Below are positions 15,245-43,178 of a DNA stretch of 64,000 nucleotides, piece after piece (within the stretch, counting starts at the first letter, position 1; each line of letters begins with the position of its first letter). Location: the NCBI GenBank assembly GCA_002238965.1, contig MPNJ01000003.1, positions 124,001 through 188,000 of the forward strand, in the 5' to 3' direction. The translations under genes and the position numbers were made by a program. The notes under the pieces were generated by a model. That model saw nothing but the letters and a program-made list of their open reading frames with translations, was not told where the DNA came from and ran no database searches. Source of the DNA: Nitrospinae bacterium bin107 (GTDB lineage: Bacteria > UBA8248).

Positions 15245-16918
15245 CTACATCTCCTCGGGAGCGGAGACTCCCAGCAAATCCAAACCATTCTTCAAAACAA
15301 CCTGCACACACTTCGCCAGGCAGAGACGTGCATGGGTGAGTTTCTCGTCCTGGCCCAGTATTCGATTGCGATTATAGTAGGCATGAAATTGTTTGGCGAG
15401 AGCGATGAGTCCGAATGTAACGTGGTGGGGCTCGAACCTCTCAGCCGCGGTCCGCACCACGTCGGGCCATTCGAGGAGATTCTTCATGAGCTGATGCTCC
15501 TCGGCCAACACGAGCACGCCGGGCATCGGCTCATTTAGTCCATCGAGCAGCTTATCTTCCTCCCCCGCCTGCCTGAACAGACTGCACACGCGCGCATGGG
15601 CGTATTGCACGTAATAGACCGGATTCTCGCTGCTTTGCTCTTTCGCCAAATCGAGGTCGAACTCGAGCGCCGTATCCGCACTCCTCATCAGGAAAAAAAA
15701 GCGGGCCGCGTCCACGCCCACCTCATCCACCACAGCAGATAATTCCTCGAACTCACCCGACCGCGTGCTCATCTGCACCGCCTCGCCTCCGCGGCGCAGG
15801 CTCACGAACTGAACGAAGAGAACGTCGAGCTTCTCGGTGTCATGGCCGAGCATCTCCATGGCAGCGCGCACCCGAGGCAGGTACCCATGGTGATCCGCCC
15901 CCCAGATGTTGATGTAGTGATCGAATCCGCGCTCATACTTGAGATTGTGATAGGCGATGTCGGACGCCAGATAGGTCGGGCGGCCATCGTCACGCACGAC
16001 GACCCGGTCCTTCTCATCGCCGTACGCACTCGAAGCGAGCCACTTGGCCCCGTCTTTCTCATAGAGTTTCTCGTTCGCTTCGAGCGCGGCGACCGCCTCC
16101 TCGACCTTGTTCCCGTTTTCTGAGAACAGGGAAGACTCGCTGAACCATTCATCGAAGCGAACCCGGAATTCAATGAGAGATTTTTCGATGTCCTCCAGTA
16201 TCAATTCCTTGGCGATGCCGCCCGCTTGTGCGAGAAACGCCTCTTCATCCCTTAAAGCTCCGACGCACTCGCGGAACTCCGCGGATTTCACGATCTCGCG
16301 GATGTATTCTCCCTGGTAGCCGTCCTCGGGAAAAGAGACGGTCTCGCCTTTCACGTCCTGCAAATAACGCGCACAGGCGGATTTCGCCAGCGTCTCTATC
16401 TGATTGCCCGCGTCGTTGATGTAATACTCCCGGTGCACGCGAAAGCCCGAAGCCTCCAGCACGCGCCCCAGAACATCGCCCAGCGCCGCGCCCCGGCCGT
16501 GGCCGATGTGAAGCGGCCCAGTGGGGTTCGCGCTCACGAACTCCAGGTAAACCGATTTCCCCGCTCCCGATTCGTTTCGTCCAAAATCATCCGGTGCGGA
16601 CAATATGTCCTTAAGCTTTGCGCAGAGGTAATCTCCATCGAGATACAGATTGATGAAGCCGGGCTTCTCGATCCGAACGTCTTTCACTAACCCTTCGGGG
16701 GCCTCGAAGTGTTTTACGATCTGCTCTGCAATCATCAGGGGCGCCTTGCGCTCTGCCCTGGCCAGCGTCATCGCGATGTTGCAGGAGAAATCACCGAACG
16801 CCTCGTTCGGCGGCGTCTCGATGACGACGGCGGGCATCTCCTCGGAAGTCAAGTCACCTGCTGCGCGCGCGCGTTCGAATGCGTTCTCGAATATGGGAAC
16901 CACCAGTTCTTTCAACAC
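15245..16918 (-). CDS. argS: Arginyl-tRNA synthetase
   Basis: This is a class I aminoacyl-tRNA synthetase. It has the N-terminal additional domain, the HIGH motif in NPTGPLHIGHGRG and a C-terminal DALR anticodon-binding domain beginning near YVQYAHARVCSLF. Length is about 557 residues. The GTG at 16918 (VLKELVVPIFENA) is preceded by TGAGG at five bases and matches the family N terminus better than an upstream in-frame start at 16957. It is followed by the SPOR-domain gene. Confidence 0.96.
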   Translation of the reverse strand: MLKELVVPIFENAFERARAAGDLTSEEMPAVVIETPPNEAFGDFSCNIAMTLARAERKAPLMIAEQIVKHFEAPEGLVKDVRIEKPGFINLYLDGDYLCAKLKDILSAPDDFGRNESGAGKSVYLEFVSANPTGPLHIGHGRGAALGDVLGRVLEASGFRVHREYYINDAGNQIETLAKSACARYLQDVKGETVSFPEDGYQGEYIREIVKSAEFRECVGALRDEEAFLAQAGGIAKELILEDIEKSLIEFRVRFDEWFSESSLFSENGNKVEEAVAALEANEKLYEKDGAKWLASSAYGDEKDRVVVRDDGRPTYLASDIAYHNLKYERGFDHYINIWGADHHGYLPRVRAAMEMLGHDTEKLDVLFVQFVSLRRGGEAVQMSTRSGEFEELSAVVDEVGVDAARFFFLMRSADTALEFDLDLAKEQSSENPVYYVQYAHARVCSLFRQAGEEDKLLDGLNEPMPGVLVLAEEHQLMKNLLEWPDVVRTAAERFEPHHVTFGLIALAKQFHAYYNRNRILGQDEKLTHARLCLAKCVQVVLKNGLDLLGVSAPEEM

Positions 16919-36198: not shown

Positions 36199-36277
36199 TC
36201 CGCATCCTGCGTTTGCGCCGAAATAATTAAAATGAAAAGATTGGCGCTCAAGCCCGCCGAACGATGAGGACAGCGCA

Positions 36278-36907
36278 TTGCCGAACCAATCCGTCGTAGA
36301 AGCCACCTACACCTATTGCGTCCACTGAGCCTGGTGCCTGATCGCGACCGGGCGGTTGCGAAAACTGACCGAACAGGCGGAGGGACGCCTCGCCACCCGC
36401 TACCGCGCCTTTCTGCTCTCGCCCGAGCCGGACAATCGTCCGGCCCGCAAGGAAGCCATCATGGGCCACTGGGCGATGGCGAAAAGCCACCCCGGCGGCG
36501 AGGAGATAAACCCCGAACTCATGGCGCGCCGCGACTTCCCCTACCCCCATTCCACCCCCGGCGCGGTCGCCATCAAGGCCTTCGCCGCCCAGATGCCGGA
36601 GCGCGAAGGCGCGTACCTCGAAGCCGTGGAGCGAACGCACCTGGTCGAGTGCAGGAACATCGACGATGCCGAAGTGCTCGTAGCCGCCGCCGAGCGGCTG
36701 GGGGCGGAGCCCGCGATGATGCGCGAAGTCATGGCCGACCCGGATATGAAACAGCGCGTCCGGGCGGACCACATCGAGGCGGTGAACTCTGGCATACAGT
36801 CCACGCCCACGGTCGATTTTTCCGGCAGCTACAGAATCACCGGCGCGCAGCCCATGGAGATATTCACAAAAGCCCTGGAGCGCGCCATGGCCGATCTGGA
36901 CACATAG
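36278..36907 (+). CDS. Probable selenoprotein: DsbA/FrnE-like thioredoxin-fold oxidoreductase with in-frame TGA (Sec17)
   Basis: Read through the TGA at 36326-36328, the 209-residue protein starts (TTG) PNQSVVEATYTYCVH-U-AWCLIATGRLRKL. The motif U17-A-W-C20 aligns with the CPWC active site of FrnE/DsbA-like proteins, so the TGA replaces the first catalytic cysteine. The rest (HSTPGAVAIKAFAAQM, GIQSTPTVDFSGSYRITGAQ) has the thioredoxin-fold cis-Pro loop. GAGGA lies seven bases before the TTG, and other TTG starts occur in this window. A SECIS-like stem-loop follows at 36342-36361. It is eight bases from the next gene. If selenocysteine is not inserted, the product would end after 16 residues. 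Alternatives are a nonsense mutation or a sequencing error, but the exact position argues against them. Confidence 0.8.
36342..36361 (+). promoter_or_regulatory. Candidate bacterial SECIS element
   Basis: TCGCGACC pairs with GGTTGCGA (eight pairs, one G-U) around a GGGC loop. The loop starts 21 bases after the TGA, within the 16-37 base range of the bacterial SECIS model, and has guanines at its first positions. It lies inside the coding sequence, as expected in bacteria. Confidence 0.7.
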
Positions 36908-38404: not shown

Positions 38405-39757
38405 ATGAGCGCCGACCTTTTGATCAAGAACGCGAAAATCGTGACGCCCACGGACACCTACGAGGGCTGCGTCTACGTGGAGGGGGGGCGGATCTCCGCC
38501 ATCACGCATAAAGCAGAAGCGGGCGCGGCGCGCGAAATCGACGCCGCGGGCCGCCACCTGCTGCCGGGCATGGTGGACGAGCACGTGCACATGATGGACC
38601 CGGGCTTCACGGACCGGGAAGACTGGACGACGGGGACCGAGGCGGCGGCCAGGGGCGGCATCACCACCGTGATCGACCACCACCGGAGCGACCCGCTCGT
38701 CTACACGCGCGAGATTCTCGAAGACAAGACCGCCTACATCGACTCGCGCTCGGTGGTGGATTTCGGCCAACTCGGCGGCCTCGACGTCGACAACCTCGAA
38801 CATCTGCGCCCCATGTGGGAGGGCGGCGCGCTGGGCTTCAAGGGCTTCATGTGCGAGCTGCACGGCGTGCCCGACCTCTCCGAAGGGGTATTGTTGAACA
38901 TCATGCGCGAGGTCAAATCCTTCGGCGGCACGGTGATGCTGCACTGCGAGAGCGATTCCATCCTCAATAAATCGAAAGAGAAGATCGACGCCGATAACCG
39001 GACGGACTACATGTGCATCAGCGACTGGCGCAACCCGGAGAGCGAATACGTGGCGACGCTCGACGCCGTGGCGCTCGCCGAACTCACGGGCTGCACCGTG
39101 CTGGTGGCGCACGTGAGCCAGCCCGTATTGCTGGAGGCCATCCAGGCGGCGCGCGGGCGCGGTGCGCGGATTTTCGCCGAAAGCTGCCCCCAGTATTTCT
39201 ATCTCGACCACTCGCATCTCGAAGAACTCGGGCCGTTCGTCAAGTTCACGCCCGTCATCCGCTCCGCCGAGACGCGCGACGGAATGCGCGCCGCGCTCGG
39301 GCGCGGCATGGTGGACACCATCGGCACCGACCACTGCCCCTTCCCCCGCCAGCGGAAGGTGGACGGCTTAGAGAACATCCACGACGCGCCCTTCGGCATA
39401 CCGGGCGTGGAGACGACGGTGCGCCTGATGCTGAACGCCGTGAGCGAGGGCGTCCTGACGCTCAACCAGATGGCGCGCATCTGCTGCGAGCAGCCCGCGC
39501 GCGTATTCAGCATCTATCCCCGCAAGGGGTGCATCCAGGTGGGCGCGGATGCGGACTTCATCGTCGTGGACATGGACCGGGAAGAGACGCTGCGCGACGC
39601 GGACATCGTCTCCAAATGCAAGTGGACGCCGTTTGACGGCTGGACGATGAAGGGCGCGCCCGTGATGACGCTCGTGCGCGGCGAGGTCGTGATGGAAGAC
39701 GGCGAGGTGACCGGAAGGGCGGGGTACGGCGAGACCGTCGAGCGCGTGGGGGGTTGA
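38405..39757 (+). CDS. Cyclic amidohydrolase (dihydroorotase / allantoinase / hydantoinase family)
   Basis: This is a metal-dependent hydrolase of 450 residues. It shows the HxH metal motif (DEHVHMMDPG), the lysine to be carboxylated in LGFKGFMCELHG, histidines in MLHCES and AHVSQP, and the catalytic Asp in GTDHCPF. A C-terminal beta strand set (GADADFIVVDMDREE) is typical of the family. The substrate is a cyclic amide but cannot be chosen between dihydroorotate, allantoin and hydantoins. It stands alone. Confidence 0.88.
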   Translation: MSADLLIKNAKIVTPTDTYEGCVYVEGGRISAITHKAEAGAAREIDAAGRHLLPGMVDEHVHMMDPGFTDREDWTTGTEAAARGGITTVIDHHRSDPLVYTREILEDKTAYIDSRSVVDFGQLGGLDVDNLEHLRPMWEGGALGFKGFMCELHGVPDLSEGVLLNIMREVKSFGGTVMLHCESDSILNKSKEKIDADNRTDYMCISDWRNPESEYVATLDAVALAELTGCTVLVAHVSQPVLLEAIQAARGRGARIFAESCPQYFYLDHSHLEELGPFVKFTPVIRSAETRDGMRAALGRGMVDTIGTDHCPFPRQRKVDGLENIHDAPFGIPGVETTVRLMLNAVSEGVLTLNQMARICCEQPARVFSIYPRKGCIQVGADADFIVVDMDREETLRDADIVSKCKWTPFDGWTMKGAPVMTLVRGEVVMEDGEVTGRAGYGETVERVGG

Positions 39758-39924: not shown

Positions 39925-40965
39925 TTACTCAATCAAAGCCAGCATTTGGTCATGGATATTGCGCCAATCTTGTGCAAGATCGATGCTCCGGGCCTGGAGC
40001 GGGAAGCCTTCCAGGCGGACGTCGATTGTCACTGGCGAGTCGATTGTCGGATAGAGCAAGATGCCTTCGTGCCTCGGTCCCGGAGCTTCGGTGGCCTCAC
40101 GATTTCTCAGGTAGGCCATGAGTTGGTAGAGATTGTCCGAATGCAGCTTTCCGCCGTACTGGCCGCCCAGGGCCTTCCGGTAGTACTTCGCATCCATGAT
40201 GATCCGGCGTTCCGGCGCTTCGAGAATGACGTCGGCTACCATGCGCGGAATCTTCGAGCGCTGGTGTTTCGGCGTGCCCTCGTCAACCCATGCAATGGTG
40301 CGTCCTCGATGGTTGACCCGGTAATGTTTTTGTTCACGTCGGTAGAACCCGATGATGAAGTCCTCGTACAGTTTTTCCATCCGCTCATCGCTGAAGTCGG
40401 TGAACGTGGCCTCCCCGGAGCGCTCGTCAATTAGCAATTGCTCATGGATGAGTAGGCACACGGACAGCAGGAATCGATAATACCGGCGGTTGCGGTCGAG
40501 TTGCACTTGCTGGAACAACCGGCGGTTCAACTGCACGTTGCCTATTCCCTTGAGTTTCGTGTAGGCGCTTCGGACATTGGCGCGTACATCGGGATGCAAG
40601 TCCGGGAGTTGTAACAAGGACCTCAGCGTAGAACGCAGGATGCGGTTGTGCAGCACGTCATGGGATAGTTCCTCGAAGTCACAAGTCACCTGTCCACGTG
40701 CTCGCAGCGCACGTTTCGCCGTCTCTCCTACGGCGATCTTTCCGCGTATGCCGGTGAGGTCCTCGCGCACCTCCCGGTAGCCGCGATCAATGCCCCTGCG
40801 GATCAGCCGGAAGGTCCCTTCGGCCAGCACCTTGCCCAGCAGGTCCTGTACTCTTTCCAGCCCTTCGAGTTCCTCCAGCCTTACTACATCGCGCTCCTCG
40901 ACATGGTCCCACGCGTAGCACAGGAGGTAGTAGATGTTGGCGATGGGGATTTTCCTGCTGCTCAA
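39925..40965 (-). CDS. mcrC: McrC, nuclease subunit of a type IV restriction system
   Basis: McrC cuts DNA once recruited by the McrB motor. The 346-residue protein starts with the family N terminus IANIYYLLCYAWDH and carries a PD-(D/E)xK nuclease core: ADVILE, then IIMDAKYY, with D and D-x-K seen near residues 245-260. Its ATG overlaps the mcrB stop by four bases. Together they should restrict DNA carrying modified cytosines. Confidence 0.9.
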   Translation of the reverse strand: MSSRKIPIANIYYLLCYAWDHVEERDVVRLEELEGLERVQDLLGKVLAEGTFRLIRRGIDRGYREVREDLTGIRGKIAVGETAKRALRARGQVTCDFEELSHDVLHNRILRSTLRSLLQLPDLHPDVRANVRSAYTKLKGIGNVQLNRRLFQQVQLDRNRRYYRFLLSVCLLIHEQLLIDERSGEATFTDFSDERMEKLYEDFIIGFYRREQKHYRVNHRGRTIAWVDEGTPKHQRSKIPRMVADVILEAPERRIIMDAKYYRKALGGQYGGKLHSDNLYQLMAYLRNREATEAPGPRHEGILLYPTIDSPVTIDVRLEGFPLQARSIDLAQDWRNIHDQMLALIE

Positions 40966-43178
40966 CGCCCCAGGTCCTCGACCAGTTTATCCACCTGCTC
41001 GGGGCGGTCGAACCAGTACTCGCGCAACAGGGGTGCGATCTGGGTATCCACTATGCCCAGGTACCACTGCTCGTCCGCCGACTCCTCGGGCACGAAGTAG
41101 CTGTGTCCGATCTGGAAGCCGGGTCCGAGGTCCTTGTCGTCACGGATGCGCTCGTTGAGCGCCGAGAGGTTCCGCTCGATCCGGTCGACGATGTCCTTGT
41201 CGACCTCCGCTTCGAGCAGGTATTCCCGAAATTTCCCGGTGCCGTACGCGGGCTTGAGCGTCTCGAACGCGAACCGGCGGCGCAGCGCGTAGTCCACTAT
41301 CGCCAGAGAGCGGTCCGCAGTATTCATGAGTCCCAGGAGATGCACGTTGTCAGGCACGCTGAAGCGTTCTCCGGACTCGCCGTAGGTCAACGCGATTGCG
41401 TGCTCCGGGCCGCGCTTGTCCGCTTCGATGAGCATGAGCAACTCTCCGAATATCCTGGACAGGTTGCCCCGGTTGATCTCGTCGATAATGAATACGAAGG
41501 GAGTATCGGGCTGTTCCTCCGCGCGCTTGCAGAACTCGAAGAAAACGCCATCACGCAATGTAAAGCCGCCGTTCTCCGTCGGCCGCCAACCCTGCACGAA
41601 GTCCTCATACGCGTAGGACTGATGGAACTGCACGATCTCGATGGGGTCCGAGTCCTTTCGTCCAATCAGGCACCACGCGATCCGCCGGGCGATGAAAGTC
41701 TTGCCGACTCCCGGCGGCCCCTGGAGGATCAGGTTCTTGCGCAGCGCGATGGAGTCGAGAATGCGGCGGAACTGCGTTTCCTCCACGAACAGGTCGGTGA
41801 GTGCGGTGGTGATGTCATAAGATGCTTTATCCGTGACATCAGGACAGGTTCCAGGCTTTTGTTTAACTCTCGATTCGAAGACGTCCCGCAACCAATTCTT
41901 GTATAAAGTGAATCGAGTCAGCGTCTTAGTGGTGATCGGCTCCTGGAGGTCGATCGGTTCATCGAAAGGGTGCCACTCCACCTTCCGGAGGTGATGATAC
42001 TCCGGTCGCTCGGGCTCGTATGCGTATTCTCCGGTAACCTTACCCCATGCAAGAAGGGTCTTGCGTCCTCTCTTTGCTATGAGAACGTCCCCGTTCTTTA
42101 TCTCATGTACGAATTCCCACACGGCAAGCGAATGGTTGATCGGGTTTTGCAATGCCCCGTTTTCTCTCAAGGCACTGTGGATGGCGTCTTTGGAATCGTA
42201 ATCGTTGAGGTCTCCTAGTTCGTCGTATCCGATCGCAGCGATGCCATGCTCCTGGAAATCCCTCCACAAGCGAGCGCCCTCACCCGGCGCGATGGCCCAC
42301 ACGTTCGCCGTGCCGAAACGCTCCTGGAACCATGCCTCATCACTGGCCTTATCAGTTTGATCGTCACCCCTCGGCGTCGACGAACCGCCGTCCCAACGCT
42401 CTTTCAAGGATGGCTCATAGAAATATATTTCTTCCCCCGGACGCTCGCCTTCGAGGCGTTTTCTTACCGCCAGCAACGCCCTGTCGACATCGATGGGTTC
42501 CATATGGGTGACATCGGGAGTCTCGCCGTTGTCCTCACGAAAAGCCTTGACGATGTCTCTCTTGTGCCTCAGCGTTACGATGTCTTCGAACTCGTCGGGG
42601 AACAACAGGAACAACAGGGCATGGCGGAATTGACGACGGCGGCCGCCTTTGTGCTCGTCAACCCATTTCGCGAAACCCCAAGTATCTCTTAGCAGAGATT
42701 CCCGTTCATCCACGGAACGAGAGCACCAGTCGCGCATCATGGTGATGATGAAGTTGAACTCTATCCACTGCTGAATCAGATAAAACGTGCCTGGGCTGAT
42801 CATTCCTCCGCCCAGAACGTCGCCCAACGCCCAGTGACCCTCGGGCAACGACTCTCCCGACCACTCCCAGACAGTCCTGATCCTGTCGAGCTTCTTTACC
42901 GGTGTTACGGGCTCCACGATGAGGTAGTACAACCACGTTAATTCCGCCCACAGGCGCTTCGCATCCGGGGATGCAGGTTCGAGTTGGCGTCGTAGTTTCT
43001 CCTCGAACGAATCGCTTCCCTTATCGGGATGCTCGACAAAGTAGGTTTGAAGTTCCTCGAAGCATTCCTTTGTCCAGAGCCGCTCATCGGAGAACAGCGA
43101 ACCGCTCTCGAGCAGGCATCGCCGCTTCCATTTTTCGGCAGCTTCGAGGATGGTAGCGGCGATTTTCAATCGAGCCAT
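40962..43178 (-). CDS. mcrB: McrB-like AAA+ GTPase with an EVE-like domain
   Basis: The 738-residue protein has three parts. Residues 1 to about 285 form an uncharacterised helical domain. From about 289 to 400 lies an EVE/PUA-like domain (NVWAIAPGEGARLW ... GDVLIAKRGRKTLLAWGKV) likely to read a modified base. The C-terminal AAA+ motor has Walker A GPPGVGKT (about 486), Walker B VFIIDEINRG and the McrB signature MNTADRS. GTP use is inferred from the family. It is translated just ahead of mcrC. SD GGGAGG precedes the ATG. Confidence 0.9.
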   Translation of the reverse strand: MARLKIAATILEAAEKWKRRCLLESGSLFSDERLWTKECFEELQTYFVEHPDKGSDSFEEKLRRQLEPASPDAKRLWAELTWLYYLIVEPVTPVKKLDRIRTVWEWSGESLPEGHWALGDVLGGGMISPGTFYLIQQWIEFNFIITMMRDWCSRSVDERESLLRDTWGFAKWVDEHKGGRRRQFRHALLFLLFPDEFEDIVTLRHKRDIVKAFREDNGETPDVTHMEPIDVDRALLAVRKRLEGERPGEEIYFYEPSLKERWDGGSSTPRGDDQTDKASDEAWFQERFGTANVWAIAPGEGARLWRDFQEHGIAAIGYDELGDLNDYDSKDAIHSALRENGALQNPINHSLAVWEFVHEIKNGDVLIAKRGRKTLLAWGKVTGEYAYEPERPEYHHLRKVEWHPFDEPIDLQEPITTKTLTRFTLYKNWLRDVFESRVKQKPGTCPDVTDKASYDITTALTDLFVEETQFRRILDSIALRKNLILQGPPGVGKTFIARRIAWCLIGRKDSDPIEIVQFHQSYAYEDFVQGWRPTENGGFTLRDGVFFEFCKRAEEQPDTPFVFIIDEINRGNLSRIFGELLMLIEADKRGPEHAIALTYGESGERFSVPDNVHLLGLMNTADRSLAIVDYALRRRFAFETLKPAYGTGKFREYLLEAEVDKDIVDRIERNLSALNERIRDDKDLGPGFQIGHSYFVPEESADEQWYLGIVDTQIAPLLREYWFDRPEQVDKLVEDLGR

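Follow-up and report, generated by a model that had tools for sequence, protein, structure and literature searches.

Does the in-frame TGA at position 36326 terminate a truncated gene, or does it encode the catalytic residue of a selenoprotein? The codon lies within a forward-strand frame of the window, by which we mean the whole 64,000-nucleotide stretch of Nitrospinae DNA analysed here. This frame (36278–36907) runs for 210 codons from a TTG to the TAG at 36905–36907, with TGA 36326–36328 as its sole interruption, and translation with TGA as U gives TYTYCVHUAWCLIATGRLRKL near the N terminus. Mechanical ORF finding that avoids the TGA yields 36356–36907, with a TTG start at 36356, as a sequence-only reading of this DNA had expected of standard gene callers. 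That reading's positions for the TTG, TGA and TAG, and its frame open on both sides, are also recovered here, and the good Shine–Dalgarno sequence it reported is present as a GAGGA-type motif ahead of TTG 36278 (atgaggacagcgcaTTG). The features of the gene are as follows.

36264–36270, forward strand: probable Shine–Dalgarno sequence atgagga, identified from the sequence; gatgagga is retained by most orthologs.
36278–36280, forward strand: TTG start codon, at the same alignment position as the ATG of the ortholog from another genus (L040).
36278–36907, forward strand: putative selenoprotein gene, DSBA/FrnE-like, 209 amino acids including U17 (PF01323, E 1.1e-15; eight orthologs with the same frame and TGA).
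36317–36319, forward strand: TGC, Cys14 of a CxxUxxC motif; invariant in the eight UGA orthologs.
36326–36328, forward strand: in-frame TGA, read as selenocysteine 17.
36335–36337, forward strand: TGC, predicted resolving Cys20 of UAWC; invariant.
36806–36808, forward strand: Pro177 of S-T-P-T, predicted to form a cis-Pro loop facing the active site, a role we take from general knowledge of thioredoxin-fold enzymes; invariant in the orthologs and in Cys-type homologues L064 and L063.

The encoded protein matches the Pfam DSBA family (PF01323) with 58.4 bits against a gathering cut-off of 25.6, and its best relatives of solved structure are SCO1869 (3gl5) and FrnE (5cnw). Aligned to either protein, U17 sits opposite the first Cys of CPWC, in agreement with the earlier proposal that the TGA replaces the first Cys of a C-x-x-C active site. 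A scan of the window for UGA genes found no second convincing case: TGA 36326 is the only one that has both a UxxC context and homologous protein on both sides, and the one other UxxC-type TGA, at 15574, has flanks that by eye are not protein-like.

If the TGA were a true stop, the locus would be a pseudogene, or translation would restart at TTG 36356 to give a DsbA-like protein lacking its active site, as the outcome of standard ORF finding would have it. To this reading we give very little credence, because the codon and its surroundings are conserved. Six relatives from public genomes were read codon by codon and 18 genomes of the phylum were searched. Together with the window gene itself, this gives eight orthologs, of which seven are within the genus and the eighth is L040. 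The other genus members are 86–90% identical to the window gene and L040 is 59% identical. TGA occupies codon 17 in all eight (7/7 genus genomes, representing seven species, plus L040) and never varies, and the flanking active-site residues Cys14, Trp19 and Cys20 are invariant. Within the genus, changes 5′ of the TGA fall mostly at third codon positions (26, 6 and 53 at positions one, two and three), a pattern by which the codons upstream of the TGA evolve like coding sequence. The same conservation rules out a sequencing or assembly error, which we consider the least credible origin of the TGA: nothing speaks for it except the draft 60-contig assembly and the metagenomic origin of the relatives, and an identical TGA is present in seven separately assembled relatives that are 59–90% identical, six from the genus and one from another genus.

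Relatives that carry Cys in place of the TGA also argue against a true stop. A profile search of 386 genomes recovered three more distant homologues from unrelated genomes, with the active sites CAWC (L063 and L064) and CAFC (L065). All three have Cys at column 17, making Cys the alternative residue there and providing the U/C exchange that the sequence-only reading had proposed to look for. The two CAWC proteins (from genomes G228 and G053, respectively) are about 29–33% identical to the window protein. All three homologues (L065 being from G097) share with it a DFPYPxS-type block and the pattern HL..C.NI.D, and L064 also has TPT. The Cys-type proteins differ from the window protein in having Cys for Sec and Asp for Cys14, the Asp being present in both CAWC homologues where the UGA orthologs have Cys14.

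The machinery for selenocysteine decoding is encoded elsewhere in the same genome, with selA, selB, selC and selD all present. The genes for SelA (L026, 576 bits) and SelB (L010, 386 bits) are adjacent to each other on contig C14, while those for SelD (L028, 334 bits) and tRNA-Sec (L018, 75.9 bits) both lie on C32. All four matches exceed curated cut-offs, and ARAGORN confirms the tRNA-Sec with anticodon TCA (UCA). The selD gene is itself a selenoprotein gene, with an in-frame UGA (GGUGSKLGP) at the Sec position known for selD. Reassignment of UGA, or its readthrough as Trp or another residue, would account for the frame being open across the TGA. This is still less probable than a true stop, since several neighbouring genes terminate in TGA, which is thus an ordinary stop here and the genetic code is not reassigned; moreover, TGA 36326 occupies the catalytic Cys column and the Sec machinery is complete.

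Selenocysteine insertion in bacteria is directed by a SECIS element, and the sequence-only reading had noted a stem-loop with a G-rich loop at a suitable distance from the TGA. We find the following structure intact in every ortholog.

36342–36361, forward strand: SECIS-like hairpin of 8 bp, with a GG-initial loop GGGC at 36350–36353, 21 nt after the UGA; conserved, with similar hairpins following the UGA codons in selD and in three paralogs (L080, L083 and L085).

In the window its letters are TCGCGACC and GGTTGCGA on either side of the loop GGGC. The ortholog consensus is TCGCRACC[GGKC]GGTTGCGR, so that the 8-bp hairpin can form in all of them around a loop of GGGC or GGTC. Pairing holds in 100% of cells, against 27–61% for slid controls. 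Six of the eight pairs are invariant and two vary on one side, with no two-sided compensatory change, so the alignment supplies no compensatory proof for the helix. The stretch, which was chosen after inspection, is more stable than synonymous recodings of itself (the fraction at least as stable is 0 to 0.003 per ortholog). When 48 nt are folded, a competing structure is preferred in some orthologs. An Rfam scan of the window gave no match. In the same genome, selD, L080, L083 and L085 have hairpins with 3-nt, G-initial loops 17–21 nt after their UGA codons; that of selD is strong and lies at 17 nt. Only a weak hairpin follows the UGA of a further paralog, L082.

Together, the Cys exchange, the Sec gene set and the conserved hairpin support the original reading of the TGA as selenocysteine. 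UGA 36326 almost certainly specifies selenocysteine in a probably cytoplasmic thiol:disulfide oxidoreductase of the DSBA superfamily (FrnE-like), decoded through SelB under the direction of the hairpin. The frame, the conservation of the TGA, its replacement by Cys in relatives, the Sec machinery and the conserved hairpin are direct observations; we infer that Sec is actually inserted and that the protein is an active enzyme, and likewise its redox direction, its substrate and the part played by Cys14. In DsbA and thioredoxin-fold enzymes and in selenoproteins, the chemistry of nucleophilic attack, resolution and the cis-Pro loop is established. In the proposed mechanism, SelB and Sec-tRNA(UCA) would decode UGA 36326 as directed by hairpin 36342–36361, and the Sec17 selenol would attack a disulfide or other oxidized substrate. 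The resulting mixed selenenylsulfide would be resolved by Cys20, or possibly by Cys14, which may act as a second partner in the CxxUxxC arrangement, and STPT would supply the cis-Pro loop.

The FrnE-like label from the sequence-only reading holds, given that SCO1869 and FrnE are the closest structures. These proteins and the window protein have in common the DSBA domain by sequence, the aligned location of the active site, the predicted cis-Pro region and the lack of an apparent signal peptide, but SCO1869 and FrnE are longer and have CPWC, with Cys. UAWC and STPT are present by sequence; a structure model built with seven close orthologs reached a pLDDT of 54.6, too poor to place either in the fold or to base a fold search on. 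No NCBIfam model attains its cut-off on the protein. By eye we see no signal peptide, which makes a cytoplasmic role likely, as for FrnE. A C-terminal CxxxxC occurs in many, but not all, members of the FrnE subfamily (cd03024); in the window protein it is absent, the last Cys being C125. The protein has UAWC where the subfamily has CP(W/F)C, and so we describe it only as FrnE-like. In Deinococcus, FrnE has a CP(W/F)C active site, and D. radiodurans FrnE (DR_0659) carries a C-terminal CxxxxC that the window protein lacks; FrnE proteins are predicted to be cytoplasmic, and a disulfide reductase role has been proposed (PMC8945050). Searches of viral contigs found no relative, and phage and plasmid records gave nothing beyond distant or partial DSBA matches.

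The genome contains six PF01323 genes, and in five of them the catalytic position is occupied by an in-frame TGA.

Window, 36278–36907, forward strand: UAWC.
Contig C21 (L080): UPFC, in-frame UGA.
Contig C29 (L082): UPWC, in-frame UGA.
Contig C21 (L083): UPYA (CYVUPYAY), in-frame UGA.
Contig C34 (L085): UPWA (HEYHUPWAY), in-frame UGA.
Sixth gene (L081): CGFC, with a Cys codon where the other five have TGA.

All five thus look like selenoprotein genes. Two of them lack the second Cys of the UxxC motif: L083, in which a Cys stands at −3 (CxxU), and L085, which has neither Cys. The UPWC paralog (L002/L082) resembles the window protein in having its UGA at the same column, but is only 28% identical to it and belongs to another subfamily; in the phylum, all 16 of its loci that were read have UGA. 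DSBA genes with a TGA are found across the 18 phylum genomes searched. The lineage is strongly biased to Sec-type DsbA proteins, which is slightly unusual.

Sec-containing DsbA-like UxxC proteins are already documented, so the window gene joins a known class and is not a new kind of selenoprotein. Nine such sequences (COG2761) were described from the Sargasso Sea set in 2005 (PMC1088965), and others are known from bacterial genomes (PMC1794560). The GOS data contained DsbA 1–3 selenoproteins, of which 'DsbA 1' and 'DsbA 2' are pfam01323 (PMC2398784), and a 2026 review includes a 'DsbA-like protein form 1' (PMC13188914). The window protein shares with the published proteins the DSBA domain, Sec for the first catalytic Cys, UxxC and a downstream bacterial SECIS; going by their descriptions, it is set apart by UAWC and the extra Cys at −3 (CxxUxxC). 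Judged from sequence, the CxxUxxC motif, and UAWC rather than UPWC, are slightly unusual. A novel subfamily defined by UAWC and CxxUxxC is possible on a comparison with published relatives by description only. Tentatively, and at somewhat less than even chance, the gene could represent an unnamed DSBA-type selenoprotein subfamily in which CxxUxxC allows Sec17 to form a selenenylsulfide with Cys14 or Cys20, in a lineage that has moved five of six DSBA genes to selenocysteine. Our literature search returned no paper linking selenoproteomes to Nitrospinota and, by titles, none linking FrnE by name to prokaryotic selenoproteins. Recognizing the selenocysteine codon restores the active-site end of a gene that would be cut short there in standard annotation. 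It also draws attention to a lineage of bacteria, represented by MAGs named Nitrospinota, in which DsbA-type redox chemistry depends heavily on selenium; knowledge of Sec decoding itself is left unchanged.

Across the genus the gene is kept between an upstream DUF2064 gene and a downstream gene for a TPR protein. A hydantoinase-like amidohydrolase gene (38405–39757 in the window) is retained farther downstream on every contig long enough to reach it, and in L040 it directly follows the DsbA-U gene, so that the proximity spans two genera; we claim no functional link from this neighbourhood. Further along, on the reverse strand (39925–43178), are adjacent genes that by inspection resemble a McrB-type GTPase and a McrC-type partner, as in a restriction system.
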